From positions 558,001 to 622,000 of the forward strand of contig NW_026570273.1 of the NCBI RefSeq assembly GCF_019649055.1: DNA of 64,000 nt. The letters are read 5' to 3'. Each line of letters begins with the position of its first letter. Within the stretch, counting starts at the first letter, position 1. The notes under the pieces were generated by a model. That model was not told where the DNA came from, did no database searches, and worked only from the letters and a program-made list of their open reading frames with translations. The stretch is from Paramacrobiotus metropolitanus (taxonomy: Eukaryota; Tardigrada; Eutardigrada; Parachela; Macrobiotidae). Below, one piece after another: positions 2,350-60,488 of this stretch. A program made the translations under genes and the position numbers.

Positions 2350-3445
2350 ACTGCTGTCGGGTGGACGCATTCGGGTGCACGCCAAGGGAAAAGTGCACAA
2401 TGTTACTAAGCAAGCTCTTCGAAGTTTTGAACGCCAAACCATTATTTAATCTAGAATTCCAGTGTGATGATAATCTCATGCAGAAATATCAGTTAACCAT
2501 TTTATGGGAACCAGAAAAAATAACATATTTTTTAATTATTTTTTAAATTTATTACGATTTTTTTAATTATAATTTATTTTACAATAAATATTTAAGGAAC
2601 TAGAAACAACTTAACTATGGCAAGGGCTGCAGGAAAATACTGTCGCGTTCTCCTTGAGACAGCGGCTACGCGAGAACGATCGCCACACAATCGTCTGAAA
2701 ACTGTGATTCATGATTTGATTTGCTGCAAACTGAGTTTGAAACCTTTCTTTACTACTCAGTAGCGTCCAGATCCTTTTAATTTTTTTGATCCTACGTCGC
2801 TGGAGGAACGAATCGTGCCGCATTACCCGGTGCTGTTCGTGATACCACACGAGCAACACCCAAAAAACGCGCGAATCCACAAGAGCCGTTTGGGCGAGAG
2901 AGCAGGCTACCTGGGCCACTGGAACTGAGGTTGTCCGCGGCATTTACTGGCACTATAACTATCTTTTGTTGCCATGGGCATGATTATCCCGAATTCGCTT
3001 TAAACGAATTCTGACTCGGTTTTCTCAATAAGCGCTTCACTGTGTATTGTAAGGGAATGGTGGTTTTTGCGAGGTCTGCTGCCATCTGTCGGCAGTGTGT
3101 ATTTATTTTGGATTTACTTTTGTGTATTTTCTCATCTTGCTTAGGCGGGAGCTTGTCCCCATTGCTGGAAGTATTTTTTACTTCACTTTATTTTTAAGAC
3201 AGTGAATATGTCTGTACAATGTACATAATTAGTGCAGTGATTAACCAGTGAATAATTTGCAGTAATTGAATAGTGATTTCAGTGATTAAACAGAGAGTAA
3301 TTTGTTTTCGAAATCGTATGGATGTATCTGAATAGTTCTCCTTGACCTGACCCTCACTTACTTTAAAATGAAATAAATGTTATGGTAGTGGAAGAGACAG
3401 CAATGTCTATAAATAAGGTACTCGTAGTTCACTTTCTTGAAACAG
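2350..3445. other. No recognised gene
   Basis: One minus-strand frame (2611-2943, 110 codons, basic centre) matches no family I can name. The signal-peptide exon expected upstream of the decayed TFP gene at 3446 could not be found here. Confidence 0.4.
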
Positions 3446-5535
3446 GAACCGGAGCGACTATTTCGTGTTACCACTGCAACAGCCATGCCGGCATGGCGTG
3501 TGGATTAACGGCCGGGTGGAATGTTACCGATCTAGAGAAAAGTGTGAAGCCATGTCCGGATGGATTCTGTTACACATAAAAAAAGGTAGCGAAAAATCAT
3601 CTTAAGATCTTGTGCTCGGTCGGCGATCGGTCAATAATCATTTGCCATTCTTTGCAGACCGAAACATTTGCAGGAAAAGGTTAGTAGAACAAAACGGTTT
3701 TTTTAAAAGGCTTTTTTGATGATGTTGCTGTTGAAGAACGTTTACAAACCCTATACTGATTTAGCGTTGGGATTGGAGCGCGGTTGTGGTCGAATATCTT
3801 GCTGCTCGCTTCCCTATCAAGGAGATATTTCGGAAGTGTGCGACGTGAACGCGGAGGATTATACCAGGACAAGTAAGAATGTTCCCGCTGGACCGCCATT
3901 TAATCAGCAGTATACCTTTATCAACGAGAATCACACCGGGCGACTGCAGTACTGCGATAGCGACCGGTGCAACAGTCAGACCACCCACTTCGCAGGGGAT
4001 AGCGAACGTGAGTAAGCTTATAAAAATTAGGTCCCATGACGCACTGCGTACCCCGTACCGAAGTTCAAGGGAACATAAAATGTCATTTTTTGGTTTTTCT
4101 GATATACTACACTAATAATTCAGAATCCTTTTGGTGTTCTTGCAAATTGCAGTGGAAGCCGGGGCCGGCGCCCATATCACTGCGTTACGTGCAAAGGTCC
4201 AGTGAATGCATCCTGCGGTATTTGGGGCGCCAGTGATGAAGCAGTGCCAACGGGTCTTGCTCCATGCCTTTCTGGCTACTGTTTTACTTACGTTTGGGTA
4301 AGTCTTACGGTCGATACCTGCTACATATTCCCCTGATAATTTAATTGATCGGGAACATGCCTGGTGCAAATTTCGTATAATATGTCAGCCGCAACTGTTT
4401 TTCGTGCATTCCGAAACAGTTTTCTACTGTTTGTTCTTGATTATGGATCCACATACATTGGCAGAAAAAATCCTGCGTGCAAGCAAAATCAGATTCCTGC
4501 GATGCATCCATTAGAAAAACTAAAAAATGGATGGTTTGTTAAGTTTCCCGTCGAATTTTTTTAAAAAGAAAGATTTTTTTTAAGACATGACCTAAAGCTG
4601 AGTCCAGATTTCGTGTGTGTCTTCTGGCATTCGCGTTCCCGCTCCGTCCCATCGTTTTCCGATCTTGTCACAATACTCGGATGCATACTTCGGACGAGTT
4701 TTAAAAAAAATTTCGAAAATTTAACAATCCGCTTTGAAAATGCAGGAAAAGATTCGGTTGAATTCGTCTTCGAATTCTCTGCTTTTAGCCAAAGCTTGTA
4801 GGAGATTGAATAATATATAGCTTTTGGCACACCTTACTGCGTTTAAACCGATTTTCTCGGATGATTTTCTCTTGCTAACTAAGGCAATTTAAATAATTCG
4901 TTTTTTAGGCTGAAGGCAATAAAAATGTGCCGACAGTATGGCGTGGCTGTGGGCTGTTGGCATGCAAACATGTACCGGGTGCAATGGGAACAGCCGGCCT
5001 TTGTAATGACGCGGATGATGTGAAACTAGTCGATACCAGGATTGGGGACCCCTTTAATAAGATTCGCTCGTTCGCGGCTCGCCAAGAACCCACCTGGAAA
5101 CTGCAAACCGGCACGCTGCAGTACTACAAAGCCGGTGATCTGTGCAATTATTAGTCGGTTCGCAGTTTCCCCTTGAAGAACTTTTATCCGCACCGTGCGC
5201 CAGTAAGTCTGTGATTTGTATGACGAAAGATACGCTACCAAACTTGCCAACAAAGCTGCTTGAATCGGTAACGTAATGATATGATGTCTTTGTAGTTTCG
5301 ACGGCCGCCGTAATAGCTGTAGGTGCAGACAGTTCAAGAAGTGTTGGACAATCTTAAGCTACAGGATGGTGCACCTATTAATTCCGAAACGTCAAAGAAC
5401 GCAGCGACGCAGCTGTTTCATACAATGGATACAAAGGGTAGTGGAGACGGGGTAGTAGAGGAAACGGAATTTACCAACAGCGGTGTCCGCAGTACACTCG
5501 GCAGAAACAGCAGCACAGCTTGTTACGTGCATTAG
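3446..5535 (+). pseudogene. Decayed two-TFP/EF-hand gene, duplicate of the gene at 49151-51374
   Basis: Six recognisable exon remnants (3446-3585, 3658-3679, about 3774-4007, 4153-4297, 4909-5202, 5329-5535) match exons 2-7 of the intact gene at 49151-51374 in order, size and sequence, including SCYHCNSHAGMACGL, YCDSDRCN and the final EF-hand exon. It is broken. The first TFP exon has TAA where the intact copy has TAC (3577-3579). The splice acceptor before the third remnant reads AT instead of AG. The 4153-4297 exon is frame-shifted by one base. The conserved Cys of QYC is Tyr, and CNY is followed by TAG (5152-5154). The EF loop has a two-residue insertion (DTKGSGDGVVEE). No signal-peptide exon is visible. 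It is a clear relic of a segmental duplication. Confidence 0.85.
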
Positions 5536-23751: not shown

Positions 23752-23810
23752 TACAACCGCGTAAAATCCATACTACGGTGGCACCGTAGTATGGATTTTA
23801 CGCGGTTGTA
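23752..23810. repeat. 59-bp perfect palindrome inside element B
   Basis: TACAACCGCGTAAAATCCAT is followed by ACTACGGTG and then its full inverted repeat, ending CGCGGTTGTA. The same 59-bp structure is at 26817-26875 in element C. The centre is GGTGGCACC. Confidence 0.85.
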
Positions 23811-31970: not shown

Positions 31971-32199
31971 CTAGGTTATTGAGCATTTGCTCTTTAGCTT
32001 CTCGGGCGTCTTGCTGCCCTTTTTGTCGTCGAGATTCACCGACAGCTTCCGTTTCTTCTCCATCTGCAAGAGTGCCTGGAAGAACTGGTTTACGTTGTGG
32101 GTGGGCTTGGCCGAGGTTTTCATGAAACCGCATCCCCATGATTTCGCTATCCTTGAGGCGTCTTCGGTTTTCACCTGCAAAAATAACATTAATTTTACC

Positions 32200-35100
32200 G
32201 CTTCCGGTGACCACTGTGGGCGCTGGAACCCCGGCTGCTGGGCGACTGGTACCCTCGTGAGCGGCTGTGTGCGGTGACCGTGGGTCAGCGAGAAGCCGGC
32301 CGACCGGGGGTCGGCGGAAGAGAGCGACCAGTGCCCTGCTTAACCGAAGGCCCCAAACAAACCCCAAACAACATCCATGATCAGGCGTAAGGATTGATTC
32401 CGTCCGTTGGAATTTGGCTGCGGACGTAGGCGGAGAAACAGTTGCTTTTCCAGCGTCCAAGGCGTTGGATTTCATTGTCGCTGGATCCTCCAACAGCGGC
32501 TGTTGTGGTACCGCCGATGCGGAAGCTGTGGGTTCCGTAACGGTGATGTTCCGGCAGGGGGCACAGCAGGTGCTTCAGTGTTCGATCGACGTCTTGACGA
32601 GTCAGGTAAGCTCTGCTGGACAGTATGAAAAGCGGTTCACGCTTACTTCCGAGTTCGAGTCTTGACGCCGCGTATGTCGCAAGAGCACGAACTGGACAAA
32701 CTGAACGCCCTGTCTTACGCAGTAACAGCTTGTAACCGTGACTGTATTGGTCAGTTTTTGTCGTTTTAAGGGACACGGTGATGATGTCAGCGGTAAGCGC
32801 GATATCATTGAACAGCAGCGTGCGCGCCGTACTGTAGGATGCTGGTGATGGTGCCGTGTACTCGCTTACTCTGAGAAGTCCGGCAAAGGCCATGGTGAAT
32901 GCCGCCCAGTACATATGCTTGTCGACCGTGGCAAGATTCATTGCGGAAAGGCGGTCTTTCAGGTATCGCAAAACAATCGAGCTTGATAGGCAGGCGGTGA
33001 TCCCGAGGCGTCGGTTCCAGTCTCTGGTAACCTTGGAGCGCGCGAGAAACGGCAGCGCTACGTGTCGGAATCCGGAATTCGCATTCAGTATGTTTGTTGG
33101 CGATGGATGCCAGGTAAACTTTGGCTGTTGCGATCGCTATGCCCCGTAAGTGAAGATCGGCAAGGAACCGGAGCACTGTGTCATCGGATGCAGGGAGTGG
33201 ATGTTCGGCAAAGCGCACGCAAAACTGCTCAAACTGGAACCAACCGGCATCATACGCTTGTCGGGTGGACGCTGCAATGTGGTGGTATTGAAGCCGGTTG
33301 GCTACAGCGTTCAGCTCATTGCACTGATGTAGTTGGCCTCTAGCTCCTCCCATATATCCGGTAAGGCGTCCGGCGATTGTCTGGCGTCCGGGGCAAGCTG
33401 GCGGAATCGCATGTCCTGAAACCGTGACAGAGCGTCAGCGATGCTGTTGTCACATCCATTAACGTGCTTGATAGTGATAGTTAAGTTGTTCTGAGCGACC
33501 GTCATCACCATCCTGCGCATCAGCGAAAGTACTGCTCTGCTAGTGGATCCAAGCTTATCCCACGCCTGACATACACCCATGTTGTCGCAATGAAACATAA
33601 CCTTCAGGATGCGAAATAAGTCCTGCCAGAGGGTTATAGCAAAGAACACGCCAAGCATTTCCTAGTATTCGTTACAGGGATTGACCCTGCTTATCCACGC
33701 AGGCCAACGAGCATTGAACCAGCGGCCTGCGAAATAGCCACCGACACCGATTGACCCCGATGCATCGGTGTATAACTGCATCACGTCAGGGCTGCTCCAG
33801 TCAATCGTGAGAAAACTTGCTTTGTCGTTCCAATCCGGAAGAAACTGCAGCCACCAGGCAATGTCGAGCTGGAATCAGCGTCTAACTGGAGTGACGGCGC
33901 ATGGTGCGGCTGGCGAGGCGGCAGATTTGTCATTTTTTGGATCAAACGTCTGAGAAACAGCCTTCCGGCGGGGATGCACTTCGTAGCAAATTGCAGTGAA
34001 CCAACCAGGCTTTTCAGCTCATTGAGCGAACACGTTGTCTTCTCCGACCAGGACCGGAGCAGCTCGATAAGTTGCTCGAGCTTCCCTGCTGGTAGAGAGT
34101 GCGTACGCGATAATGAATCTAGTGTTATACCCAGGAGCTGAGTGGCGGGTCCCTCTAGCTTGTCTGCTGCGAGTGGAACGCCTAGCTCTTCGCATAGTTC
34201 CTTGAACAGCAGTACAAGTTCAGCGCAAAGGCTACCTGGCGGTTCAATAATCAAAAAGTCGTCAATGTAATGCAGTACGGCATAATGACCGGATATTTGA
34301 ATAAATATTCATTCGATTGCGTCCGGACAAGCGCAGAACAGCCGAAGTGAAGATCGACAACCAAATGGCAGTACGACATCTAAATAGTAGTTACCTTTAA
34401 ACTTGTATCCCAATAGGTTCCACTGTGACTGCATAACTGGTATCAGTCGGAAAAAGCTTTTTATGCCGAGCTTTGCCATAACTGCGCCGCGGCCAGCTCG
34501 AATAATTAGCTTTACGGCGTCGTCAACCGAACAAAAACTTAGAGGCGGATCATCTTTCGGAATGTGGTCATTCACAGAGTTTCCGGTTGGCTGTGACAGG
34601 TCTAGTATGGGTCGAAAGCCACCGCTCGACTTCGCTCGTATGCTGAGCGCAATGCAGACAAAATTCGGTAAAGGGGAAACTTTAAATGGACCGCGTGCGT
34701 GTCCGGAATCGATGCTCTTCTAGATGCATTCAGCCATAGCAGCGGGATGTTCGGAGACTGTACGGGAATTCTGCGTAAATCGCTCAAGCTACGGGCCCGT
34801 GTAGCCAAGGTAAGCTATGTTGGTTAGCATGCCGATCAGGCCGGTTACGTATTGCCAATTAGGATGATCGACGAGGTATTTGGCAAACACGTGTGGCCGA
34901 AGTGGGGTGCGAAGGTCACTCCCGTTTGACGTCGTGGCCACTGCGGCGTGCGCCGTGGGCAACTGTACTCTCCATGGTTGAGCGACTGACCGTCGCTGCA
35001 TTCGTGGACGCGTCCGTGGCGGCATGGCGTTGAGCAAATGCCCTTATTGAAGAGGTTGCAGATTTCCCCCTCTGCAGCAGGGCGGCCTCGAAAGGGCTGT

Positions 35101-36300
35101 TTACAATCCTTTTGAATATGTCCAACCTCTTTGCAGCGTCCGCACTGGAGCGTCGCGTGACGAGCCAAACCGCTAGTGCTAGCCGCCTTAGAGGTGGATA
35201 TCTTGGGATTAGCGATACACTCTTGAAACGACTCTTCGTCGCGTCGCGTCCAAATATCCGTGTCGTACGGATTGTTGGCGGCGTAATTCCGAAATCGCAT
35301 GTCGTACTCGAGGACGTGGTTGAAGTTGTACCCGCGGTCCGGATCGGAAAACAACGCAATGAGATCCATGTATTCCATGAAGGGAACCGTGAACTCGGGG
35401 TGGTTAAGCGTGCGATAGGAGACAAAGACTCCAAACGCTCGAGACCAGGTGGCATAGTTCGTGATTTGCTCTTTTTTAACTGATGGAATGAAAACCGCTT
35501 CACCTGTGGCTGGGTCGTGCATCATCTTTGTGCCAGTTTGGGGACGCTTGGACGGCACGCGATTCTGTGGCAGCAGGTCCACAAAATCGACAAACTGAGT
35601 GTGGTCCAGAAGAGTTTTTCGCAGTTTAGGGTTGACGGCTTGCATATCTTTGAAAGCTGAAGAGGCGGCAGGCTCTCCCGGATAACGGGAAATATTCTTC
35701 GGCTCTGGAGCGCTATCAATAGTTATCTGAGCTATTGGTTGCTTACCGGTGCCAGCGACGATCCGATTTGAGGATTCTGACAATGAGCGGGATCCAGCCG
35801 GAGGGACAGTCAAACTCGCTAATCCGCCACTTGGCTGCAAAGTGGAGACCGTCTGCTGTAAAGCAGCCACTTGCTCCGTTAGCGCTCGGATACTGTCGTC
35901 GGTGCTTGATGTGAACGTGGTAGTAGCTGGGACCACTACTTGTGAACGCAGGCGGCGGGGACCCGGCCGCGTTGGATTCCTCTGTCCGCGCGTAGAATTC
36001 GTGCCGATTCTCCCACGTCCTCGTCCCTGCGTACAGGAGGCATGTTGGTTCGTTCAATCAGCAGTAAACGTTTTATCAAGACGCGAAAAGTTCGAAAATT
36101 GAAGAACTTTAAAAATAAAGAACATAAAGAACAAATCACTCGCGCGCAAACGAACAGATATGCAGTGATAGAGCAAATGCAAATGCAGAACCAAAAGCAA
36201 ACCAAGCGCGGGCACAGGAACTGTGCCGAGCGCAAACGCCGGCGTCGGCGCGTGCAAGGCAGCGGCCGCTTTGATCTAAACGGCCGTAGCGGCGCAGCGC
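32200..36300 (-). mobile_element. DIRS-type (tyrosine recombinase) retrotransposon fossil
   Basis: Read on the minus strand, the parts follow DIRS order. A gag-like region (about 36050-34845) has a coiled-coil-like start, a CCHC knuckle (CGRCKEVGHIQKDC) and a second Cys/His cluster. Reverse transcriptase pieces lie at about 34800-33780, and RNase H sequence at about 33660-33310 (HVNGCDNSIADALSRF). A tyrosine recombinase runs from about 33353 to 32381 (GLLRVSEYT, THSFRIGG, LGRWKSN). The copy is broken, with several breaks mainly in the reverse transcriptase part. Terminal repeats could not be delimited by eye, so the ends are approximate. It lies in the same orientation as the surrounding Di-Ras-like locus, within an intron. 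Moderate decay suggests an old insertion. Confidence 0.8.
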
Positions 36301-43558: not shown

Positions 43559-45562
43559 ATGGAAATACTGTTGTTCGCAGCTCTAACTACCTTTTTCATC
43601 GCCGACCGCATTAATGGTGAGTTATTAGACAAAATGCAAAATGTCTGAAAGCAGATAAAAAAACAGATAGCTTATGAATCAATTTTTCTCGCACTGTGAG
43701 CTCAAATATCGCAGCAGCCGGAAGCATCAAAAAACCTCTATTGTTCAAAATACCGAGATCGGTAAATTTCCAAACTATATAAATTTTAATCAGTTCCCAG
43801 ATTGCAGTTCTTTCACAGGTGTGATATTCTTAGCTATAGTAATGCTTTTAAATTCTCCGTGTATCGTTTGCACAGTAGTGAAGTACACATTGTACACATC
43901 CTATAAATTGTAAAATTTGCTGGCATTTGAATTTGAATACGCTGCAAAAGCTATGCTCCCACTAAAAACAATATATTGGAATACTGCAGGTTTATGAAGT
44001 AGTAGAAAACCGCAAACACTCAAAGTATCAGATAGCTATAATTATTTCTTCATCAGCTAGCGGAGCCACCGTATCGTGCTATCATTGCGACAGTCATGCC
44101 GGCATGGCATGTGGACTGGCGGCCGGGTGGAACATTGCCGATCTGGAGAACAGCGTCAAGCCGTGCCCGGATGGATTCTGCTACACTTACCAAAGCGTAA
44201 TGTTAACGCCCCAAACTAGCTCATTAATACTTTCGTCAGCGATTGAAAAGTGTCTTATAGCTCCGTGTTTGCAGAGCGATGTATTTGATACCAAAAGTAA
44301 GCAGACACTGGCACTGATAAAATGCAACAGCATATCGAAAACAAGCTCGATACCGTTGCTTAGAATTTGAAGTAAAACGGGGATGTGGCCGGCTACCGTG
44401 TTACGAGTTGCCCTACGAAGGTAACGTGTCGGCACTTTGTGATGTGGACAGTAGCGGCCATCGAAAGGAAAAAAACGTTCCTCTCCCGTCCGGACCGCCA
44501 TTCAATCAACGGTATAACTTCGTTAGTGAGCTACGGAACCGGACGTGGCAGACCGGACGCCTGCAGTACTGCGATACCGACCGTTGTAACAAGGATCCCA
44601 CGCACTTTGCGGTGGATGCTGAGCGTAAGCTGGAGAGTTTGTTTTTTCGTTGCTAATCACTACTTCGCGAGCGTTTATCGTGTGCTAGATCTGTTCTTAA
44701 TTAAGTCTTTTTGGTAATAAGTTAATTTCGCATATGTTAATTGCAGTATCCAATGCGACGAGCAAAACTTATTACTGTGTTAATTGCCGAGGTCCGGTGA
44801 ATGAATCATGCGGCATTCTCGGCGCAAGTGAGGAAAGGGTTCCATCCGACGAATATCAGTGCCCATCCGGGTACTGTTTTATTTATGTTTTTGTAAGTTC
44901 AGTAGGCATCTATTCCAGCAGAACAGTTACCAACCAGCTCAAGTTCCCACAAAACGTTTTCCTTAATTTGTGGATTTTCCGAGGTATTATTCGATCAGAA
45001 CCTAAGTGTGCGATGATTTGCAGGCGGAGAGCGACCGAAGTGTACCAAAAGTTTGGCGTGGCTGTGGACCGGTTTCTTGCAAATATATTCCTGGCTCATC
45101 GGACTCGATCGGCCTGTGTGATGAAGCTGACAAGTTGGAACCGGTGGATACCAGCAACGGCGACCCTTTCAGCAAGATCCGCACTTTTTCGGCTCGATAT
45201 GGACCCACTGGCCAGATGCGAGCCGGCACAGTGCAGTACTGCAAAACAGGGACGCGATGCAATTATCAGTCGGTTCGCAGTTTTCCCTTGGTCAGCCTGT
45301 ACCCGAATCGTTCACCAGTACGTCCCAGCTATTCAGCCGAACTTATACGCCACTACAAAGAACATGCCTTTCGTAAATAATTGCTGTTTTCCAGACGGTG
45401 CAGGAAGTCATGGATCAGCTGAAGTCACCAAAAGGCCCGATACACAGCAATCCTGGAACGGGAGATAGTCCGGTTAAACAGCTGTTTCGCATAATGGATG
45501 TTAACGGTGATGGTGTACTGGACGAAACGGAATTTAGCAAGAGCTTGAGTCGGTTGTCCTGA
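43559..45562 (+). CDS. Secreted protein with two three-finger (Ly6-type) domains and an EF-hand
   Basis: Seven exons with consistent phases: 43559-43616, 44057-44196, 44275-44296, 44364-44624, 44747-44892, 45024-45317, 45395-45562, giving 362 aa. Residues 1-19 are a signal peptide (MEILLFAALTTFFIA). The first TFP domain (about 25-152) has VSCYHCDSHAGMACGL, CPDGFCYTY, RGCGRLPCY and YCDTDRCN. The second (about 168-298) has YYCVNCRGPVNESCG, CPSGYCF, RGCGPVSCK and YCKTGTRCN. Each has the ten-cysteine C-x2-C to C-x4-CN layout of Ly6/uPAR proteins. Residues 342-353 (DVNGDGVLDETE) are a canonical EF-hand loop. N-glycosylation sites include NRT and NAT. It is likely extracellular with calcium-dependent folding; partner unknown. 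Exon borders match the gene at 49151. Confidence 0.85.
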
Positions 45563-46160
45563 AACCTAAACGAAACACTTTTCGGAAATTTATAAGTTTG
45601 TCTGGCTATTTCAACTGAGAGCAAGTCGAAGTGCTTACATTAAAGAACCTGTAATTAAAGGTACGCTACATTTCGTGTCTACCAGCCAAAATAAACAAAA
45701 GTATTATAATATGCTCTTATTTTGAATGGGTGGTTTTGGCAGTTTTTGTGCGCTGACCAGATTTCTCAGACAGAAGGCCGGTTTCGGCTTTTTTCCGCAA
45801 AAGTCAACTTACGCACTGCGAAAAAAATTATTGGTGAAGTCCTATCTATTTCAATGTGGGCACAAATCATGAATAAATGGCTGTTTTAGCCGGCTATACC
45901 GGCCCGAAGAGCTCCAGATACCGTTCTATTCGTTAAAAGATCGTTGAATAGCCTGCACGTTTCAAGAAAAATGTGAAACAAGTTGTGTATTTGCGCGGCG
46001 ATAAATGGGTGAGCTATACCAATATCGGAACGACGAATCAATTAATCCACATAATCTTGATAGCAGGACAGGCACTGCATGCGCGCGCTCACTTGTAATT
46101 TGTAAGCCGGCTTATACCGTTTGTTTGACCTGGATTATTTTACAGCTTCGCTTTAATATT
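45563..46160. other. 3' flank of the TFP/EF-hand gene
   Basis: A polyadenylation-type AATAAA lies at 45690-45695, 128 bases past the stop codon. No further gene is recognised up to the repeats starting near 46170. Confidence 0.5.
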
Positions 46161-46169
46161 ATATATATA

Positions 46170-46955
46170 CAAAGCTAACTGAGCCGTTTCTTCGGCCAAC
46201 ATCTCCTCCTTCACAGTTTGACGCTAATTTTCGCACGATAGCTTAAAAAACGTCTAAAATCACGTAGTTTGACTCAACGACTTTCGTTTCTCGATCTTTT
46301 CTTCCCCTAATTTATGAGACTCGTTCAAAACGAATTTCCCTGATTGGCGGATCATTAGAAATTAATTGAAGATTGGCGGAAATGCGTAACTTTCGAATCT
46401 AAACCGCTGACACATGGCATATGTACAAACTGATTCATATGCAAAACTGAGCCGTTTGTTCGGCCAACGTCTCCTTCTACACCGTCGCCACTTCTGTAGG
46501 AGTATAGGAGACACACTCACTACACAACGCGCTCGAAACGAATCGCTGATTGGCTTATTGTTAGAAATTAAAAGAGGATTGGCGGAAACGCGAAAATTTT
46601 CGAACGAAAACTGCTGACTAACGGCATGCGGTACAACGACACTTATGATTTTAAAATTAAATATTTTTTTTTAAAATTACGTATGCTATGTTTTTAAAAT
46701 TACTATTATTAATATAAAGAGCTAACTTCATAGTTTTTCTTCATTTTCCTCCTATCCCTTCGGCGCTAATTCTTCCACGATAGCTTAAAAAACGCTTAGA
46801 TTATGTTATTTGTCCTTACGACTTTTGTTTTTCGATCTTCTCGTCACTTAGTTACAAAGCATGACCAAAACGAATTTCGCTGATTGGCTTATAATAAGGT
46901 AAATAACAGCTGATTGGCGAAAATGTGTAACCTTTCGAGCGATGCTAACACGTAG
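46170..46955. repeat. Three diverged tandem copies of a unit of about 230 bp
   Basis: Copies start near 46170, 46440 and 46718. They share AACTGAGCCGTTT, TTCGGCCAACRTCTCCT, ACGATAGCTTAAAAAACG, CGACTTTCGTTTCTCGATCTT, AAAACGAATTTCGCTGATTGG and GATTGGCGGAAATGCGTAAC in the same order. The second copy lacks the middle ACGATAGCTTAAA block. The divergence suggests an old tandem amplification. Confidence 0.65.
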
Positions 46956-47144
46956 TATAATATCAGGTGAGCGGCATCTCATTTAATTGACGAAAAGAAG
47001 AAAAGGATAACTGTACCTTAACGGGGAAAGGTACATAGAAAGACTAACATAAATACTTATTAAAAAGAAGGGACTACGATGAGCACAATAAATGTTCCTC
47101 TAATGCAAAAATTTCCGACTGGAAGATATAACTTCCGATTGTAT

Positions 47145-48565
47145 TTTTGCCGGTGAGACAGACCATGGGGGAGAAATTTTGCCGGTCAGAAAAAAGTACA
47201 GACATTTGCGCCCGTTAGCCCAGATGGGTAGGGATTTTCGACGGTCAGAGAGAAGTACAGGGATTTTCGCCGGTTAAACAGAAATACAGGGATTTTTGCC
47301 GACCAGATAGGGATTTTCGCCGGTCAGATAGAGGTACAGGAATTTTCGCCGGTCAGATAGAAGTACAGGGATTTTCGCCGGTCAGATAGAAGAACAAAAA
47401 TTTTCGCCCGTTAGCCCAGATGGGTAGGGATTTTCGCCGGTCAGAGAGAAGTACAGGGATTTTCGCCGGTTAAATAGAAATACAGGGATTTTTGCCGACC
47501 AGATAGGGATTTTCGCCGGTCAGATAGAGGTACAGGGATTTTCGCCGGTCAGATAGAAGTACAGGGATTTTCGCCGGTTAAATAGAAATACAGGGATTTT
47601 TGCCGACCAGATAGGGATTTTCGCCGGTCAGATAGAGGTACAGAAATTTTCGCCGGTCAGATAGAGGTACAGGGATTTTCGCTGGCCAGATAGAAATACA
47701 GACATTTTTGCCGGCCAGATAGAAGTACCGGAAATGTTGCCAGTCAGATAGAAGTACAGAGATTTTCGCCTGTTAACCAGATGGGTAGGGATTTTTGCCG
47801 GTCAAAGAGAAGTACAGGGATTTTCGCCGGTTAAATTGAAATACAGGGATTTTTGCCGGCCAGATAGAAGTACGGGGATTGTTGCCAGTCAGATAGAAGT
47901 ACAGAGATTTCGCCTGTTAGACCAGATGGGTAGGGATTTTTGCCGGTCAGAGAGAAGTACAGGGATTTTCGCCGGTTAAATAGAAATACAGGGATTTTTG
48001 CCGACCAGATAGGGATTTTCGCCGGTCAGATAGAGGTACAGAAATTTTCGCCGGTCAGATAGAGGTACAGGGATTTTCGCTGGCCAGATAGAAATACAGA
48101 CATTTTTGCCGGCCAGATAGAAGTACCGGAAATGTTGCCAGTCAGATAGAAGTACAGAGATTTTCGCCTGTTAACCAGATGGGTAGGGATTTTTGCCGGT
48201 CAAAGAGAAGTACAGGGATTTTCGCCGGTTAAATTGAAATACAGGGATTTTTGCCGGCCAGATAGAAGTACGGGGATTGTTGCCAGTCAGATAGAAGTAC
48301 AGAGATTTCGCCTGTTAGACCAGATGGGTAGGGATTTTTGCCGGTCAGAGAGAAGTACAGGGATTTTCGCCGGTTAAATTGAAATACAGGGATTTCTGCC
48401 GACCAGATAGAAGTATAGGGATTTTCGCCGGTCAGATAAAGGTACAGGGATTTTTGCCGACCAGATAGAAGTACAGGGATTTCGCCGGTTAAGTAGAAAT
48501 ACAGGGATTTTTGCCGACCATATAGAGGTACAGACATTTTCGCCGGTCAGATAGAAGTACACGGA
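47145..48565. repeat. 29-bp minisatellite with higher-order structure
   Basis: About 49 units of GTACAGGGATTTTCGCCGG plus TCAGATAGAA (29 bp), with variants such as CCGACCAGATAGG, TTAAATAGAAATACAGG and CCAGATGGGTAGG. A block of variant units is repeated with a 398-bp period: 47581-47978 and 47979-48376 correspond almost base for base. The unit holds no stop in several minus-strand frames, so long apparent frames there (48229-48562) are artefacts. It lies between the two intact TFP/EF-hand genes. Confidence 0.9.
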
Positions 48566-49150
48566 TTCAGTACTTGATGTTTAGTAGTTGAAGTAGTTGA
48601 TTTCAGGTAAACCGCTCACACAATATTCGAAATTCAGTCATACATTTTCCCAACCGAGGCTTAAGTTATGTTAAGCGCAAAATGAAATTCATATTGAATG
48701 TGTTACTGACATGTTCTAAACTAAATTTTCTAGAATATTTATGGTTGTTTCTTTACATTTATAGCTCCGTTTATTATATTTACAGTAAGATATTAGCGTA
48801 ATTCAATTGTTCATTTACACAACATGCTCCTTATTCCTTATTGCGTAACAAAAGATCACTAACGCTAAGTGCAATCTTGCTTTACGCCTTGCGACGTGGT
48901 TGTATCATAACGGGAAAACACCAACACTTTCGACCTTCTACCGAAATAACTAACTGACTTAGCTGAATTCTGCAGCATTGAGTACTTAATGACGACAGTT
49001 ACAAATTCAAAACAAACCGCATTTCCGATCCAGTTAATTCCGTTTCCTAAATCTTTGTACAACTACCACATTACTTTCTTCGATTCTAAAAATTCTCAAC
49101 CGAGGCCGGAGGCCGAGGTTGAGCTTGTAATAACAATTATAACCGCAAAC
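48566..49150. other. No recognised gene
   Basis: AT-rich sequence between the minisatellite and the next TFP gene. A short palindrome, CTCAACCGAGGCC / GGCCGAGGTTGAG, lies at 49096-49124 just before the start codon region. Confidence 0.4.
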
Positions 49151-51374
49151 ATGGGGTGCGTTGTTTACTCAGTTCTTACAATCGTCTTTATTACGGGTAT
49201 TACAAAAGGTAAGTCATAAATAAATTTACAAAACGTGGCATTTTAATATTAGATCAATTTAGATGTAAGGATGATTGAATCTGTTAATCAATGTAAAGCA
49301 TGTCGTACATCATTCTTAGTGAAAGGCCGCAACAATCTTTTGCCGGATTTACTTAATATTCGTGTATTAACACTTACGCGACGCATCCATATTCCTTGCA
49401 GTTTATTATGCCTTTGTCGCTCATCTACGCAGTTCTGAAAATTTGCTGACTATAAAAATTAATTGTATATGGAATTAAGAAAACGCAAGCGGTATAATAA
49501 TGGACATTGCGCCAAAACGCAAAGATTTTCCCAGACGATAACGTTCTGGTTGCAGTGCGAAATGGGTGGCCAAATACTAACCTATTAGATCCTTGAATAC
49601 GAGAGTGCACTTGCAAACATCGTTAAAATTATCTGTTCTCACAATAAACGGTACTACACTCTGTACTCTATACAGTGCAACTTATCGGTCGCTTTCCAAA
49701 TTAAATGTTGTAATCAAACAGTCAATGTCCAGAATAATGCCTTTGCACCTAAACTTCTTCAAACAGGAACTGAAGCGACGATTTCGTGTTACCATTGCAA
49801 CAGTCACGCCGGCATGGCGTGCGGGTTAACGGCCGGGTGGAATGTTTCCGATTTGGAAAAAGATGTGAAACCCTGCCCGGATGGATTCTGTTACAAATAC
49901 GAAAAGGTACGCAGAATATTAAGATGAACTGCTCAGCATGGATCAACCAATAATCGCTGCTATGCTTTGCAGAGCGAGACATTTGCAGGAAAGGGTAATT
50001 ACATACACATATAGAACGAATTTATTACAAAACAGTGCTTTTGGTTTTAATTATGACGTAGCTGCTGACAAAGAATTGTAAATTCTACTCGTACGATTTA
50101 GCATTCGGAGTGGAGCGCGGTTGTGGTCGAGTATCGTGCTACGCGCTTCCCTATCAAGGAAATATTTCGGAATTATGCGAGGTGGGCGCGGATAACACCC
50201 GGAAAGGCAAGAATGTTCCCACTGGACCGCCGTTTAATCAGCAGTATACCTTTATCAATGAGCATCACACTCAGACCGGACGACTGCAATACTGCGATAG
50301 CGACCGGTGTAACAGTCAGCCCACACATTTCGCGGTGGATACGGAACGTAAGCACTTTTTTCGGTACGACGTCGTACTGCTTATCCCTTGAGGCTTTGTC
50401 TAGAAATACTTCAGATATTTCAATGAATTGCAGTCGAAGCCGAGGCTCGCGCACCCTACTACTGTGTTGCGTGCAAAGGTCCGGTGAATGGCTCGTGTGG
50501 TGTTTTGGGCGCCAGTGAGGAAGCGATGCCCACTGATCCTTATCCATGTCATTACGGCTATTGCTTTACTTACGTTTGGGTAAGTTTAACCTTCCACCGA
50601 TTCCCCTGATAATAAAACTGAAGGCAATGAACCAGTACACATTTTTTAAAATATTTTTATGATGATTTTTTTATGCCTGAATACCGTTAACATGGCTTTT
50701 GGCGCACCACAATGCATCAAAATGTTTGCTGCTGGTGGTTCATCCCTTGTTAAACACAGGAATTTATGGAGGTTGTTTTCTTCAGGCTGAAGGCAATAAA
50801 AATGTGCCGACGGTATGGCGTGGTTGTGGACCCTTGGCATGCAAGCATGTCCCCGGTGCAGTGGGATCGATCGGCCTATGTGATGACGCCGATAAGCTGC
50901 AACCGGTCGACACCAGCAATGGGGATCCTTTTAACAAGATCCGCTCCTTCTCGGCTCGCCAAGAGCCCACCTGGAAACTGCGAGCCGGCTCGGTGCAGTA
51001 CTGCAAAGCCGGCAATCTGTGCAATTACCAGTCGGTTCGCAGTTTCCCCTTGAAGAACTTGTATCAGCATCGCACGCCAGTAAGTCTATGATTTTTCTGA
51101 GAAAAGATGCGCTGTTTAACATATCCACAAAGTGGCGTGAATCAGATAATACGATGTTTTGAAATTTGGGCAACCTACATGTATGTGATAGCCATGGTTG
51201 CAGACAGTGCAAGAAGTGTTGAATAACCTGATGCTGCCGGACGGCTTACCTTTCGGAAACACCGAACCATCAAGAACCGAAGCTACGCAGATGTTTCACA
51301 CAATGGATAAGAACGGCGACGGGGTTTTGGAGGAGGCGGAATTCAGCAGCGGCGTCCGCTGTACACTCGGCTGA
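49151..51374 (+). CDS. Secreted protein with two three-finger (Ly6-type) domains and an EF-hand
   Basis: Seven exons: 49151-49208, 49767-49906, 49973-49994, 50111-50347, 50434-50579, 50786-51079, 51204-51374; phases agree, giving 355 aa. Residues 1-19 form a signal peptide (MGCVVYSVLTIVFITG). TFP 1 (about 24-148): SCYHCNSHAGMACGL, CPDGFCYKY, RGCGRVSCYALP, YCDSDRCN. TFP 2 (about 160-290): YYCVACKGPVNGSCG, CHYGYCFTYVW, RGCGPLACKHVPG, YCKAGNLCN. Residues 334-345 (DKNGDGVLEEAE) are a canonical EF-hand loop in the last exon. Exon lengths equal those of the 43559 gene for exons 1, 2, 3, 5 and 6, showing common descent. Its near-identical but decayed duplicate is at 3446-5535. Likely extracellular and disulphide-rich; binding partner unknown. 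Confidence 0.88.
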
Positions 51375-52026
51375 GACAGCTAATTACGGGCGTTTGCTAC
51401 TTTTTGTAATTGTTCTTTCGTAGACTGCCACGCAACAGGCCTTGTCTGGCAAAATTTTTCTAGAGTTTCATGTGAAATTGCATTAGTAAATCTAGAGCAT
51501 GCTCATATTAATGCGGATTTGTTTTCGGCGAAACAATTTGCCAAAGTGAAGAAATTAGATTGATCCGATATTGATTCTCGGAATTTCTAGCTAGATCGGT
51601 AGATAATCTGGCCTTGTGCAGAATGCAGTGCAGAATCTAGTATAAAAACTATTAACTAAATGAGTGCTTCACAAACGTTTTTTGTCCTGAAGCCTTTTCT
51701 ACAAGCAAATGTAAAGCATAGAAAAGGCTCTGGTGGCTTAACAAGCATCTGCTTTTCTGTAATGCATTTTCGACAGTACCGCGCCATATCGCGACAAATC
51801 GCGATGGAAATTACGATTGTGTGTGATCAACTGATAACATTCAGTCACCCATGTTTCACCGATGCAGAGCCATTCGATCTTTTCTTCTCCATACGGTATA
51901 GCTGTCAGCCTGCCACTGATTTAATTTAACTGGCATGCAGTCGATGGTTGGGGATTTCTAGTTTCGCGAATATCTCTTCGGCAGAACTTTGGATACTATC
52001 CATATTATATAGATCCACAAAAAAAC
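51375..52026. other. Spacer between two TFP genes
   Basis: No gene is seen. It shares blocks with 5536-6788, marking the non-coding part of the segmental duplication. Confidence 0.5.
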
Positions 52027-53708
52027 ATGAGCATGAAGTGGAGAGTAATTGCTTCTATACCATTTCTATACATGACCTTCGTCTTTAAAGGTATGTATCA
52101 TAGTTTCAGAATTCTAAACCGATCTTACAAAAACTGTACATGTACATATCTGTATCTGTACATTTTCCCGCATAAGCAATAGGGCAAAGTCGCAAACGAA
52201 TAAACAACAGGCATGTTATAACGATGCGAATGTCTAGCTAATAGCTATACGGCTTCAATGGCCGGTTTTTCGATGATTTATTCCTGGCCAGGGCTACGGG
52301 AAAGGCCATCGTCGCGTGACCGACTCGCGTGCAATAATAAACGTATAGAATATGTTTTGCTGCAGCGCGCGGATATGTTTCTTCTTATTCATGCATCTCC
52401 TGCAAGAGTTTGGTGAATGAATCGTGTGGCGCTTTACCACAGGCCACAGAAGGTGAACACATGGACCCAGTGTTCACCGTCGGGAACTCTACCGCACTGC
52501 TTCACTTACGTTTGGGTAAGTACGGAATACAGAGTAGTGAGAGTACGATGTACAGACTCTGTTCCAAACACTGAAACGGACTGTGTCACAGATAAAAAGC
52601 GGCAATATTAGACCAATCAGAAATTGCTTTACCTCTGCGCCCGGACGAGCGAAGCCGGTATTATTGTACCGGCAATTTTAACAGTCACAATTACTTGCGC
52701 TGCATTGTCCTAACAGCCAAAAGCAGAACTGTTGCGAACTTTAATGCCAAAACCGACGTACACTTCAGTCGAATAAGCATAGGAATGATTTCTTAACCGG
52801 AAGCTACTGTCGCGTCTCACTACGCAACAGCACATGCAGGCGCTGTGTCTGCTAGTTTTGAGTTTCATAACAAGCTAAGTGCACATTTGCGAGAGATTTG
52901 CGCTATAGTGAGCCGGCAGTACCGGTAGCACGTCAATTACTTGAACGTCGTTTCGCTTCCCGACAATTTGCTGACCGATATTTTGTTGATCCGCAAATGA
53001 TGGTCAGCAAGTTTTTGGTAGCACGATAGTGGCCAACATATTGTCGTGGCGCCGGCGATATCGGCATTTCCAGTGTTTAGGTTTCTTAACCAAACGGCTG
53101 GACCGACGGGCTGGTAGCTAATCAAAACCAGTGCTACATTCCGTTTTATTTGCGAACCAAAACCCCAGCGTGTGCTCTTCCAGGCTGAACCTCCTGGCAT
53201 GCCAGTGGTGTGGCGGGGATGCGGTGGCAGCATTCCGTGCCGATTGGTCCCTGGTGCTTCGGGTTCGCTGGCTCTGTGCGACGAAAACGATCGACTGGCG
53301 CCCGTTTCCGGCGGGCTACACAATCAGTTTCAGCCATACCACGAATGGATTCGATCCGGGGATGAGCGGTCAGCCACGCTCCTCAGCTGCAACGCAAGCC
53401 AGAAATGCAATTTCCAGCCAGTTGGCGATTTCCCCTTGAAATTCGTCCGATATTTCCCAACAAAGGTAGGAAGTGACCTTCTCCAAAGGAATTAACGCAA
53501 ACGTAGAATTTTTCGCACATGCCGGTAACTGACTATTTGGCGATAATTTGTTCATTCTGATCAATGCGCACAACGGTTTTATAGAGAACATTAAACAAGC
53601 TTTTAACGTCTTAGACATGATGCATGCTTTTTGTATTCACTTAATTTTTGCTGCTGATTTTAGACTGTCCAGGAATACGTAAACATGTTGCTACCAGCGC
53701 GACAATAA
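52027..53708 (+). pseudogene. Short one-TFP relative, probably frameshifted
   Basis: Exons: 52027-52090 (signal peptide, MSMKWRVIASIPFLYM), 52366-52515, 53184-53465 and 53664-53708. Exon 2 has YSCISCKSLVNESCG in one frame and CSPSGTLPHCFTYVW in another. Its 150-bp length breaks the phase needed for exon 3, implying a one-base insertion. Exon 3 is open and well conserved (WRGCGGSIPCRLVPGASGS, SCNASQKCNFQ). The last exon starts TVQEYVNMLL like the EF-hand exon of its relatives but stops after 14 codons, so there is no EF-hand. It matches the second half of the two-TFP genes: one TFP domain only. If exon 2 uses an unseen splice site, the gene could still work. Confidence 0.6.
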
Positions 53709-54711: not shown

Positions 54712-56833
54712 ATGAAATTACGATCTGTTCAATATATTTCGCTTTCTGTGCTCCTGATGGCATGTATCGATGGAGCTTTCTGCTACGACTATTCAGGATT
54801 CGAAGGTAAGTGTTAATTTTGTGCAGTTTTATGCCAAGAACTGGCGGTTAACGAGAATTGTGAGAAAACATCCGTACCATTCTATGGAACTGTTTCTGAT
54901 AGTACGCATGGAGCACTACTGTGACCGGATACTCTACTTATCGTGTCCCGACAGCGACGATGCTGCAGGGCGAGCGGGAAGATTGCACTACTGGATTATT
55001 CCGTTGCAGAACTGCTCGGTCAGCGTGCAGACCGTCTGTACGGCACCGCATGCCATTTATTTCAACATACCGTAAGTAACGCAGAGCGGTAGAAGCATTG
55101 CTTCTCTAATCTAACCTAATGCTGGTGATTCATGCGCATTGGACGGGTCCGCACTGCGCACTGTCCATTGATTTATTTATTAAATTTATAAATAATGGAC
55201 CGACTGGCCGTTTCTTTTTTTGTCTGTATTTTAACATGTATTGTACAGAGGTAGTTAACACGTATAATTAACGTAGTTTTAATTATAATAGATCTTCAGT
55301 ATTAACGCTATGCGCTTATTTGTTTGGTATAAAGTACAAATACGACCGCATTTTATTCTTCCTTTTTTTTAAACTAGACGCTCGGATTTAGCCACGGAGG
55401 ATTCCCTGGAAGTTTATGAGAACGGGGAGTTGGACAGCCATGGCAGCCTTATTAAGCGTATTCCGGGCGGCTCCAGTCCGAGTAACCCTGAGCCCAAATC
55501 AGTAGCACAACTCTTGACATCTGTCAGCAACAAACAACGCCTTGCCTTCAACATGTTCATTAAACCGAAAACTTCGCACAACTACTCGCATGAAGTGGTC
55601 ATCGATTATACCATTGTGAAGGGTATGAAATGTTAATGCTACTCACCCATGTATAGTTGCAGGTGAAAACCATTAAAGCCTACGTACCATTTTGGTAAAG
55701 AAAATAAATTCGGTTTTTTCGTCGAAAGGAAGAAAAACTTACGATAAACGGAACAGACAAAACGGAGCGGTATTGGTAATAGCGTTAAGCGGACTTCACA
55801 GATTTCGATAACTTTACTGGAGAGTGCAGAAATTCTCCAGACCTGGTAATCAAAGTGTAATTTGTGAAATGCTGCAGGTGCGGCAGGACCGAGGGAGACC
55901 TACTGCCGTGCCTTGAACGGTTACATCCACAGTGACATCATCTGTGTGGACAGCAGCGATGACCGACTGAACTGCCCGCGAGCATATGATCACACCATCG
56001 ACATCTCCAATCGCGCTGACGGCCAGCAGACGTGTAATATTCATTCGGTGGTTCCAGAATCAGTCTCCTTACCTTTCCCGCAACTAATCCGTAAATATTA
56101 GCATCTTCATACAGTTACCGCATAAAATGATAACATAGCGACATTTTGTGTAGAACGCCGTCGTACTTTGGATAATGTGATAATACAGTAGTTACAACGA
56201 TTTGCTTTCGACATTACAGCGGCCAGACTTCCAGCAGTAACAAGCTGCATCCAGTGTTTAAGTTTGATTACGGAACAGTGCGGTCTGCATGGCTCGGCCG
56301 CTGGACAAGTGCAGCGCGAAGCTTGCAGCTCGGGATACTGCTATACATATGTTAAGGTACATATGTATGCGCATTATCAATAACACCCGAAAGCATACTT
56401 GATTTTTCTCATATTTGCTTCGCTTTAAGAGTACGTTTTCAGACATTGCTCGAACGTGTTTTAACAGAATGAAGTTTACAGAAATGTTTACAAAAATGCT
56501 TTTAAAATAAAAGCATAGTTTGTCGTTAAAAATTACTTTTCATTATTCTGTGCAGTTCATCAGCTTGTCTAATGATGTTTATCCTTACAGGCCGGTTCCA
56601 TACCGCTCGTTATGCGCGGCTGTGGCGGCGTCCTCTGCAGCTTGATTCCGGGTGCGGGTGGTTCCACTGTCCCGTGTGACGAGCACGGTCGGTTGGTGCC
56701 GGTGAACACCAGTGCCGGCCGGGAGTTCAACCAGATGCGATTCTTCTATTCGTCCGAGCAGGCATCGCAGAGCGGCTCGGTGCAGTACTGCAACAACGGA
56801 CCAAACTGCAATTCCGGACCCGTTCCCGGTTAA
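54712..56833 (+). CDS. Secreted CUB-like plus three-finger (Ly6-type) protein
   Basis: Six exons: 54712-54805, 54903-55071, 55378-55622, 55878-56090, 56220-56356, 56591-56833; all phases agree, giving 366 aa. Residues 1-24 are a signal peptide (LSVLLMACIDGAF). Residues about 36-168 look like a CUB domain: HYCDRILYLSC, WIIPLQNCSV, EDSLEVYENGEL, LTSVSNKQRLAFNMF, VVIDYTIV. A Cys-rich segment follows (ETYCRALNGYIHSDIICVD, QQTCNIHSV). Residues 246-366 are a TFP domain: SCIQCLSLITEQCGL, CSSGYCYTYVK, RGCGGVLCSLIPG, YCNNGPNCN. The final two exons closely match those of the 57852 gene. If intron 4 is retained, a TAG follows at 56099-56101, giving a CUB-only form. Likely extracellular; ligand unknown. 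The CUB call is by pattern and less certain than the TFP call. Confidence 0.8.
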
Positions 56834-57851: not shown

Positions 57852-60488
57852 ATGGCTTGGATGTGGATCGCGTTGTTCTTGCTGGGTACCGCTGATTCAG
57901 GTTTGGCAATGCCCGTAATTTAAATAAATAAATAAGTTTTGACAACCTTAAAATTTATTAAATTTCACGAAATTAGAAAAATAACCGTGGTTAATTCAAA
58001 AAAATTTGCGGAATACAGTATATAGTATATACCTTGTTGCAAAAACGTGACAAGCCTTTACTTAATATACGTATACGTAGTACAAGAAGTATTACTACTA
58101 GATTACGCGAAGCAAAAATTTGTTCGTGTAGTCGTTTAATTTTCGAAGTTTAATCACGCAAATACGAGCGCAACGGCGTCTTCTTTTTGAATAATTTAAA
58201 AAAAACATCATAAATTGCCTTTTAGAAGTCGAATTTCAGATTAAAATTATTTGTTGGACAGTGAATGGCCAACTTAACAAAAAGTTATTCTTTCATTCAA
58301 GCTTACTTTTTGCAATCAGTTCGCTCAGTGATATACTGTGTGAGACTAATTCACTGCTCTGCAGTTATCCTGTTTATTGTGAATAAAAAACGTTCTACAG
58401 GGCTGGCTGATGTCATTTCGTGCTATAACTGCAATGGCACGGTGGAGCAAGCCGGCGCAGCTGGAACCGCTTGTGGCTGGTACAAAGGATGGACGCCGTC
58501 CAACCTAGACAAGCGGACCGGCATCGTCTGTCCGGAGGGAGTTTGCTTCACTCTTATGATGGTAACCCAACACCATTACGTTTTTTGCTTGCTCTTTCAC
58601 AAATTTACGCGTCTTATTTACTCCCATGTCTTATTCTTAGGGCGGCACTGGTCAAGGTACGAGTACGAACTCGAGAAAAAATGACGAAAATACCAAGTTC
58701 GGCAGACTGCCATGCATCTAACAGCTACCCAAACCGCTTCTTTGTTATACATCGGTGGCAGTCTTACTCCTTTAAATATGAATTACAATTACGGGAACAC
58801 CGTCTACGCACATATTGACAGAGGAATGCTTAATATGCATTACTGTTACTTATCAACAACGATTTTAAAGGCTGGGGTTATGTAGTGGGGACCATATATC
58901 GCGGCTGTGGCTTGGTAACCTGCGATAAGCTGCCGCGTGGCTGGGAGAAGCAGGAAGTGTGTGATAGCACTGCGAACAAAGTCAAAACGCCGTCCGTGAA
59001 TGAAAATGAGAAGTTCAACGACATCCGCGTATTTCTAGCCACCTTGCCCGGCAACGTGAATGTCAGCAGTCTGCAGTACTGCGATAAAGACTGGTGCGGT
59101 ACGGGCGGCGAACTGATTGCCCAACGCTTCACCACAGCGTTAGAAGCTGCCTCTGCGCCACCGGCTGACACGACGACACCAGCGCCACTCGCTCCTGTCG
59201 TGATACCGGTGGTGGTACCGCCACTGGCTACGAAATCTGTCAACAACGGAACTGCCGCGCGATATCAGTCAACCAATCAGCCGGCGAATAACGGAGCGGT
59301 GGCGGTGACCGTTGTTACGAGCGGCATGTCAGGTTCGTTACTTCGCGGTGTACAATGTCGAAAAAGGAAGTAGAAAACCAAAAATTGGTTCGAGTTTCAA
59401 GAATTTATTTTTTAAAGTCATAAAATCACTAATGCGCTTAAGCAAATACTCGCAGACTCAATACTAGTTCGAACAGAGAAGCGCTTCGTTGCGCAGAATG
59501 TGTTAAAACGAAGAACCTTTGTACTTTTATGTTCCTCGGTTTTTAACTTGTATGCTGGAATTTAGGGACGTCATTAGTCAGGCATATTTTATTAAGATCC
59601 TGGTTTCCGCTAAGTCGTAGTGTACAACGAGAACTTGCAGACACCATTTGCCCCTATCTACGTAACTGTAGCTGTGAACAGCTAAAAAAACCCCAGTAAA
59701 ACATTTTGTAATAACTAAACAAAAATAATGTATTTGTATTACAGTGCCCAGCATTCCGTCAGTAAACAGCTGCATTCAATGTTTGAGTTTGGTTACGGAA
59801 GAATGTGGTCTGCAAAGCCCGGGCGATGAACAAGCACAACGGGTGGCATGCAATGCCGGATACTGCTTTACTTACGTGAAGGTACGAAAAACAATAAATT
59901 AAAACGGTAAAATACATTTAGTACAGGTGAAATTTTCAAGAATGCTAATCAAATCTTCTTCATATATTTTGATAAGCTAGCGCAAAAACTATCACTTAGC
60001 TTTCCGGTAGAAATTTCAATCGTTTTGAAAACTCAACACTGGCCGTACACTATAGATAACTTGGGTACTACCTGAAGAATTTTTTTGTTTTCTGATCCGT
60101 CAATAGAGCGCGGCCGGACGCTCGAACATTTGCAGGGCAGCGTAATTATATTCTACGATGCTGTTTTAAATGCAAACTGCGAGCTTTTTCCCACTATTTT
60201 CAGTTGCGTATTTGTTTGATTCATTTGTCAATCTTACAGACCGAAGCCGGGTCTATACCGTTCGTCATGCGCGGCTGTGGTGGCGTCCTGTGCAACTTGA
60301 TTCCTGGTTTCGGCGGCTCCAGCGTCCCTTGTGATGACCACAGCCGGTTGATACCATTGAACACCACAGCTGGCCGGCTGTTCAACGAAATGCGCTTCTT
60401 TTACACGCCCAAGCTGGCAGCACAGAGCGGAGCGGTACAGTACTGCAACAACGGGCCAAACTGCAATGCCGGGCCTATTCCCGTTTAG
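57852..60488 (+). CDS. Secreted protein with two three-finger (Ly6-type) domains and a Pro/Thr/Ala linker
   Basis: Six exons: 57852-57900, 58401-58561, 58641-58656, 58886-59332, 59745-59881, 60240-60488; phases agree, giving 352 aa. Residues 1-16 are a signal peptide (MAWMWIALFLLGTADS). TFP 1 (about 20-125): SCYNCNGTVEQAG, CPEGVCF, RGCGLVTCDKLP, YCDKDWCGTGG, where the usual Asn after the last Cys is Gly. A linker of about 90 residues is rich in Pro, Thr, Ala and Val (APPADTTTPAPLAPVV), possibly O-glycosylated. TFP 2 (about 230-352): SCIQCLSLVTEECGL, CNAGYCFTYVK, RGCGGVLCNLIPG, YCNNGPNCN. It has no EF-hand and no GPI-type hydrophobic tail, so it is probably soluble and secreted. The second TFP is very close to that of the CUB-like gene upstream. 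AATAAA is at 60602-60607. Confidence 0.85.

Follow-up and report, generated by a model that had tools for sequence, protein, structure and literature searches.

Domains of the Ly6/uPAR (LU) superfamily, which are given as 60-90 residues in size, are probably no bona fide mobile modules according to a 2019 review, as far as its accessible text goes, and occur predominantly alone or together with their own copies (PMC6600238). A few exceptions are named in this text, i.e. GPIHBP1, SP-10, and the TGF-beta receptors, and, among four kinds of LU proteins, multi-LU proteins are given only as glycosylphosphatidylinositol (GPI)-anchored and as mostly consisting of LU domains alone. The term "EF-hand" does not occur in the review. 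We analyzed a stretch of 64,000 nucleotides from the tardigrade Paramacrobiotus metropolitanus (contig NW_026570273.1, positions 558,001 to 622,000), which is called the window and to which all coordinates refer. For two genes of the window, gene 1 and gene 2, a signal peptide, two LU domains, and a terminal EF-hand are predicted, without an apparent GPI signal, a layout that we regard as highly probable. We rate this LU-LU-EF arrangement as a new domain architecture within a known family, with a putative function.

The exon models of both genes were built by hand from the DNA, and their splicing is predicted. A first-pass annotation, made from the letters of the DNA, had already proposed two intact paralogues with a signal peptide, two LU domains, and a last exon encoding a single EF-hand. 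Pfam matches, a loop pattern, the exon models, and hydropathy were all in agreement with this layout. Of its two product lengths, 362 amino acids (aa) was reproduced for gene 1, but 358 aa instead of 355 aa was found for gene 2. The intron phases (1,0,1,1,0,0) are identical in the two genes, all 12 introns have GT-AG borders (22 of 22 when the neighbouring genes C and D, treated below, are included), and exon 3 is a microexon of 22 nt in both cases. The two products are 60% identical over the blastp alignment. At the DNA level, four blastn matches were found between the two gene regions (E<=1e-3), which correspond to exons 2, 4, 5, and 6 minus a few edge bases; the introns, the flanks, and exons 1, 3, and 7 yielded no match at this threshold, being too diverged or too short. 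Both products have a hydrophobic N-terminal stretch (best 15-residue mean hydropathy of 2.08 for gene 1 and 2.37 for gene 2), and a comparable stretch was absent from both C-termini (maxima of 0.16 and 0.36 in a plain hydropathy scan, with no dedicated predictor). Because the C-terminal hydropathy is low, no GPI signal is apparent for genes 1 and 2, and the same plain scan revealed no hydrophobic C-terminal GPI signal for genes C and D. The region between genes 1 and 2 contains about 49 tandem copies of a 29-bp unit (47176-48567).

The LU assignment is based on Pfam, the cysteine pattern, and the intron phases, and the predicted membership of the domains of genes 1 and 2 in the Quiver (QVR) branch of the Ly6/uPAR superfamily is supported. 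A search against family models, suggested as a check in the first-pass annotation, found QVR (Quiver u-PAR/Ly-6-like, Pfam PF17064, curated cut-off 27.3 bits) in both whole proteins when E values of up to 10 were allowed, above the cut-off for gene 2 (E 8.6e-7, 30.3 bits) and below it for gene 1 (E 4.4e-5, 24.8 bits). Genes 1, 2, C, and D together supplied seven LU domains for an alignment, and as single domains five of the seven were matched by QVR (E up to 10, best 2.9e-6). In all seven domains the ten cysteines are invariant, additional cysteines do not occur, and the spacing is nearly constant (2; 7 or 13; 14-18; 4; 15-22; 4; 12; 37-43; 4-5). The widest spacing is that between C8 and C9, with 37-43 residues; in LU domains these two cysteines are usually adjacent. 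C10 is directly followed by Asn in six of the seven domains, including every domain of genes 1 and 2, and by Gly in domain 1 of gene D. The distance from C1 to C10 is 110-128 residues in all seven cases and thus exceeds the size range of 60-90 residues in the accessible review text (PMC6600238). A looser rule, given in the accessible part of another paper, places the cysteines within 120 residues (PMC8763315) and is obeyed by five of the seven domains, but not by domain 1 of gene 1 (122) and domain 1 of gene D (128). Of the initial designation as "Ly6-type three-finger" domains, the LU family was retained and narrowed to QVR, but the domains are longer than described, and the three-finger fold is putative, the half-domain model described below being of low confidence.

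A phase-1 intron precedes every LU domain in the four genes, and domain 1 of genes 1, 2, and D is flanked by phase 1 on both sides. In contrast, LU domain 2 of genes 1 and 2 is followed by a phase-0 intron leading into exon 7, whereas genes C and D end at this position. The microexon is located between C5 and C6 of LU domain 1 in genes 1 and 2 and also in gene D (58641-58656, 16 nt). When the seven-domain profile was compared with PDB sequences, the only matches were to three distinct sequences of ribosomal protein eL21 (best E 0.54), and these were taken as chance. Exon 6 of gene 2 was also used to scan genomes of bacteria and archaea, which gave 62 pattern matches and no relatives, a result that is uninformative on animals.

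Exon 7 is assigned as an EF-hand because a 12-residue loop signature is present in both genes, together with flanking helices in the predicted model for gene 1. The loop sequences are DVNGDGVLDETE and DKNGDGVLEEAE. A 13-residue pattern after PROSITE PS00018 matched twice in the six frames of the window, and the two matches are exon 7 of gene 1 and exon 7 of gene 2; by chance, a mean of 0.04 matches, and never more than one, was obtained in 100 first-order Markov simulations. EF-hand_1 of Pfam was found in both proteins (23.8 bits for gene 1, 21.4 bits for gene 2). The first-pass annotation had stated that the loop is conserved in two diverged copies, and this was confirmed: the loop and the following Phe are identical at 10 of 13 positions, compared to 14 of 42 in the remainder of exon 7 (p=0.007), and 3, 1, and 8 of the nucleotide differences in the loop are at codon positions 1, 2, and 3, respectively (p=0.019). 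Also in favour of a maintained loop, the broken copy A (Table 1), which has lost its frame and a core cysteine, departs from the EF loop length as well. The ratios of nonsynonymous to synonymous changes between genes 1 and 2 (dN/dS, Nei-Gojobori, with saturated dS) were about 0.10 for LU domain 1, about 0.16 for LU domain 2, and about 0.22 for exon 7. From the sequence comparison, selective constraint is apparent on the LU domains and, more weakly, on the EF loop.

Two pieces were folded, exon 6 (half of LU domain 2, 8 alignment rows) and exon 7 of gene 1 (2 rows). The exon 7 model contains helices at residues 2-10, 26-34, and 44-54, with the EF loop between the last two, and has a mean predicted local distance difference test score (pLDDT) of 68.5; the values are below 50 at residues 13-22, and the 10-residue means are 68-84 from residue 21 onward. 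Foldseek comparison of this model with the PDB gave 37 matches with a best E of 1.5; judging from the titles, about 30 are EF-hand proteins. A phmmer search of PDB sequences with the gene 1 protein also gave 37 matches (E<=10, best 0.004), nearly all of them EF-hand proteins aligned to residues ~325-361, with matches through residues 334-355. The exon 6 model is a single hairpin with a mean pLDDT of 55. The EF loop is thus complete, a helix-loop-helix form is plausible, and calcium binding is predicted. The first-pass annotation had suggested that the loop is functional; we infer the same, and a functional calcium site in genes 1 and 2 is, in our judgement, somewhat probable.

Several results weigh against the interpretation of genes 1 and 2 as LU-LU proteins with a calcium-binding EF-hand. 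The EF-hand_1 scores are under the curated Pfam cut-off of 25.4 bits in both genes, and other EF-hand models scored lower still, although this cut-off is a filing rule of the library and not part of the definition of an EF-hand. Lone EF-hands are often weak calcium binders. Over the whole of exon 7, the differences at codon positions 1, 2, and 3 are 24, 18, and 30, so that the third-position excess is not significant (p=0.086), the exon 7 linker has a dN/dS of 0.32, and the saturation of dS makes every dN/dS ratio rough. The comparison of the LU profile with PDB sequences found no LU chain, Foldseek comparison of exon 6 with the PDB had a best E of 1.4 and no LU protein in the 50 listed of 218 matches, and neither the exon 6 nor the exon 7 piece had a PDB match at E<0.001. 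Lastly, exon 7 has the lowest identity (44%) among the mature-protein parts compared between genes 1 and 2.

This low identity also speaks for the best-surviving alternative, in which the arrangement does exist, with an EF-hand that is nonfunctional or only a structural tail, i.e. a late addition with weak or no calcium binding that adds a helical end to the protein. In line with such a tail, gene D manages without an EF-hand, the broken copy B has lost it, and the C-terminal ends beyond the EF loop are barely similar between genes 1 and 2. However, the residues D, N, D, V, D/E, and E, which we take to be the ligand positions, are kept in both loops, and the third-position bias within the loop also argues against a mere tail. 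We consider this alternative rather unlikely and continue to prefer a calcium-binding EF-hand.

Exon 7 might also lie outside of the mature message, if transcripts end in intron 6 or are spliced elsewhere, and the product would then be a plain LU-LU protein like that of gene D, which stops directly after its second LU domain. In favour of this, read-through past exon 6 adds 20 residues before a stop codon in gene 1 and 3 residues in gene 2, and neither AATAAA nor ATTAAA was found within the 626 bases 3' of exon 7 of gene 2. However, an AATAAA is present at 45690, beyond exon 7 of gene 1, intron 6 has GT-AG borders and does not differ in phase between the genes, the frame of exon 7 is open across the EF pattern in each of them, and the two read-through tails are dissimilar, making this possibility very improbable. 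It is also highly doubtful that exon 7 encodes an ordinary paired domain consisting of a degenerate, hidden first hand and a canonical second hand: the model does have an additional helix at residues 2-10 and the two-hand model EF-hand_7 aligns to residues 307-351 of gene 2 (below the cut-off), but a pair requires four helices and the model has three, and the residues of low pLDDT between the first two helices have no loop signature.

Our preferred reading, which we hold with moderate confidence, is that genes 1 and 2 encode secreted, soluble LU-LU proteins of the Quiver branch with a partner-binding LU pair and a calcium-binding EF-hand. The two disulfide-rich LU domains would bind a partner protein, as LU domains generally do according to the accessible review text (PMC6600238). 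The EF-hand would lie in the secretory lumen or outside of the cell and would be loaded with calcium there. It may act as a calcium-stabilised C-terminal cap, or it could pair with its counterpart in a second molecule, which would result in a dimer and thus in a calcium-dependent binder with four LU domains. Such an EF-hand-driven dimerisation seems unlikely, and both the dimer and the ligand are conjectural. A wider view would be that the LU domain is truly mobile in this animal lineage, having been joined to an EF-hand and, separately, to another extracellular region, and that the EF-hand is a calcium-gated dimerising switch; this view, too, is speculative and has a low probability.

Further family members, which are absent from the first-pass entry, were found by tblastn within the window (Table 1). 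For copy A, tblastn did not reveal a signal-peptide exon; in-frame stop codons are present in exons 2 and 6, a core cysteine is missing from LU domain 2, and the EF loop is longer by two residues. Its DNA identity to gene 2 is about 77% in three exon-bearing blocks. In copy B, the frame is broken between 52469 and 52495, and the exon 7 remnant stops ahead of any EF-hand. The region 51695-52756, which extends from the 3' side of gene 2 into copy B, has a second occurrence at 6475-7493 with 68% identity, and therefore copy A together with the adjacent sequence seems to be an ancient duplicate of gene 2 and copy B. Gene C has a QVR match far below the cut-off (E 0.042, 15.3 bits). Its N-terminal region (54712-56090, about 210 aa) contains several cysteines and is connected to the LU domain by a phase-1 intron; it had no Pfam match (E<=1 for the region, E<=10 for the whole protein), and the best value of a PDB search was an unconvincing 0.049. 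By eye, it could be taken as CUB- or LDLa-like, which was supported neither by Pfam nor by the PDB search.

The QVR match of gene D is above the cut-off (E 2.5e-6, 28.8 bits). Gene D shares the phases 1,0,1,1,0 and the microexon (16 versus 22 nt) with genes 1 and 2, and therefore the LU-LU part appears to be shared ground, with the EF-hand exon differing between the branches. Because this LU-LU neighbour has no EF-hand, we favour the addition of the EF-hand exon to an LU-LU gene over its loss in gene D. The exon would have joined the 3' end of the gene via the phase-0 intron 6, in one branch of the tandem cluster.

Table 1. Predicted genes, domains, and gene copies of the LU family in the window.
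Feature	Position	Strand	Content	Evidence
Gene 1	43559..45562	+	7 exons, 362 aa	hand-built model, checked by translation
Gene 1 exons	43559-43616, 44057-44196, 44275-44296, 44364-44624, 44747-44892, 45024-45317, 45395-45562	+		
Gene 1 LU/QVR domain 1	44057..44624	+	exons 2-4, ten cysteines	QVR E 4.1e-5 alone, 24.9 bits vs cut-off 27.3
Gene 1 LU/QVR domain 2	44747..45317	+	exons 5-6, ten cysteines	alignment, cysteine spacing, second QVR stretch at lax threshold
Gene 1 exon 7	45395..45562	+	linker, EF-hand (13-residue signature 45497-45535), stop	EF-hand_1 E 2.8e-5, pattern, model
Gene 2	49151..51374	+	7 exons, 358 aa	hand-built model, checked by translation
Gene 2 exons	49151-49208, 49767-49906, 49973-49994, 50102-50347, 50434-50579, 50786-51079, 51204-51374	+		
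Gene 2 LU/QVR domain 1	49767..50347	+	exons 2-4, ten cysteines	Pfam, alignment, cysteine spacing
Gene 2 LU/QVR domain 2	50434..51079	+	exons 5-6, ten cysteines	alignment, cysteine spacing, second QVR stretch at lax threshold
Gene 2 exon 7	51204..51374	+	linker, EF-hand (13-residue signature 51306-51344), stop	EF-hand_1 E 1.6e-4, pattern
Broken copy A of LU-LU-EF gene	3445..5535	+		tblastn, blastn
Broken copy B	52383..53708	+	one LU domain over two exons, open exon 6-like stretch, exon 7 remnant	
Gene C	54712..56833	+	signal peptide, ~210-aa non-LU region, one LU domain, no EF-hand	
Gene D	57852..60488	+	signal peptide, LU, linker rich in Pro/Thr/Val/Ala, LU; no EF-hand	

Several other features were observed in the window. 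Pieces of a retroelement are present on the minus strand (31816-36053), with open reading frames that match a zinc-knuckle (E 0.002, weak), a reverse transcriptase (0.21, very weak), the RNase H-like RVT_3 (8.7e-4), and Phage_integrase (0.009), all of them below the Pfam cut-offs; they are suggestive of what we take to be a DIRS/Ngaro-type element. At its edge, the C-terminal part of a Ras-family GTPase (31974-32339, minus strand, Pfam Ras E 4.9e-6) overlaps another open frame. An open single-exon gene for a rhodopsin-type G protein-coupled receptor of about 334 aa lies at 10495-11502 on the minus strand (7tm_1 E 3.4e-22; Srx 6.9e-7), the regions 23254-24447 and 26180-27373 form an inverted duplicate of 1194 bp with 99.8% identity, and a small two-exon gene (61077-61723) possibly encodes a secreted protein of 141 aa with no Pfam match.

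The combination of LU domain and EF-hand was not met in the open-access literature, among the titles and beginnings of abstracts that were listed, and to this extent the earlier statement that no described family has the combination stands uncontradicted. Two Fasciola papers (PMC8763315, PMC11484910) contain both "Ly6" and "EF-hand", but in the portions available the EF-hand mentions concern other proteins, and the titles and abstract beginnings of a conotoxin preprint (PMC12236594) and of a paper on EGF-domain hydroxylation (PMC9293771) contain no such combination.

Genes 1 and 2 resemble the Quiver/Sleepless family (PF17064) in that gene 2, and also gene D, score above the cut-off, and in sharing the ten-cysteine pattern and, in six of seven domains, the Asn after C10. 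Unlike Quiver, the LU domains described here are long, owing to the 37-43 residues between C8 and C9. The putative location of the EF-hand outside of the cytosol is reminiscent of secreted or luminal EF-hand proteins such as SPARC and STIM1, which, unlike genes 1 and 2, have no LU domain. In both SPARC and STIM1, the canonical EF-hand is paired with a second hand. If true, the architecture would suggest, in a way that is open to test, that an LU protein is under the control of extracellular calcium, and such calcium gating would be a mode of control not met in the literature covered.

Within the LU superfamily, as described in the accessible text of the review (PMC6600238), Quiver itself is a GPI-anchored protein with a single LU domain, unlike genes 1 and 2 with their two LU domains, EF-hand tail, and lack of an apparent GPI signal. 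Like uPAR, C4.4A, Haldisin, and multi-LU proteins of fly and zebrafish (PMC6600238), genes 1 and 2 have LU domains in tandem, modules separated by phase-1 introns, and a clustered location, but they again differ from these by the EF-hand and by having no apparent GPI signal. GPIHBP1 and SP-10 are likewise encoded by LU genes with an extra exon for a non-LU part, but there the extra part is a disordered N-terminal segment, and here it is a C-terminal EF-hand (PMC6600238). If true, the LU-LU-EF gene pair, located beside an LU gene with a different non-LU region, would represent a further clear exception to the non-mobility of the LU domain.

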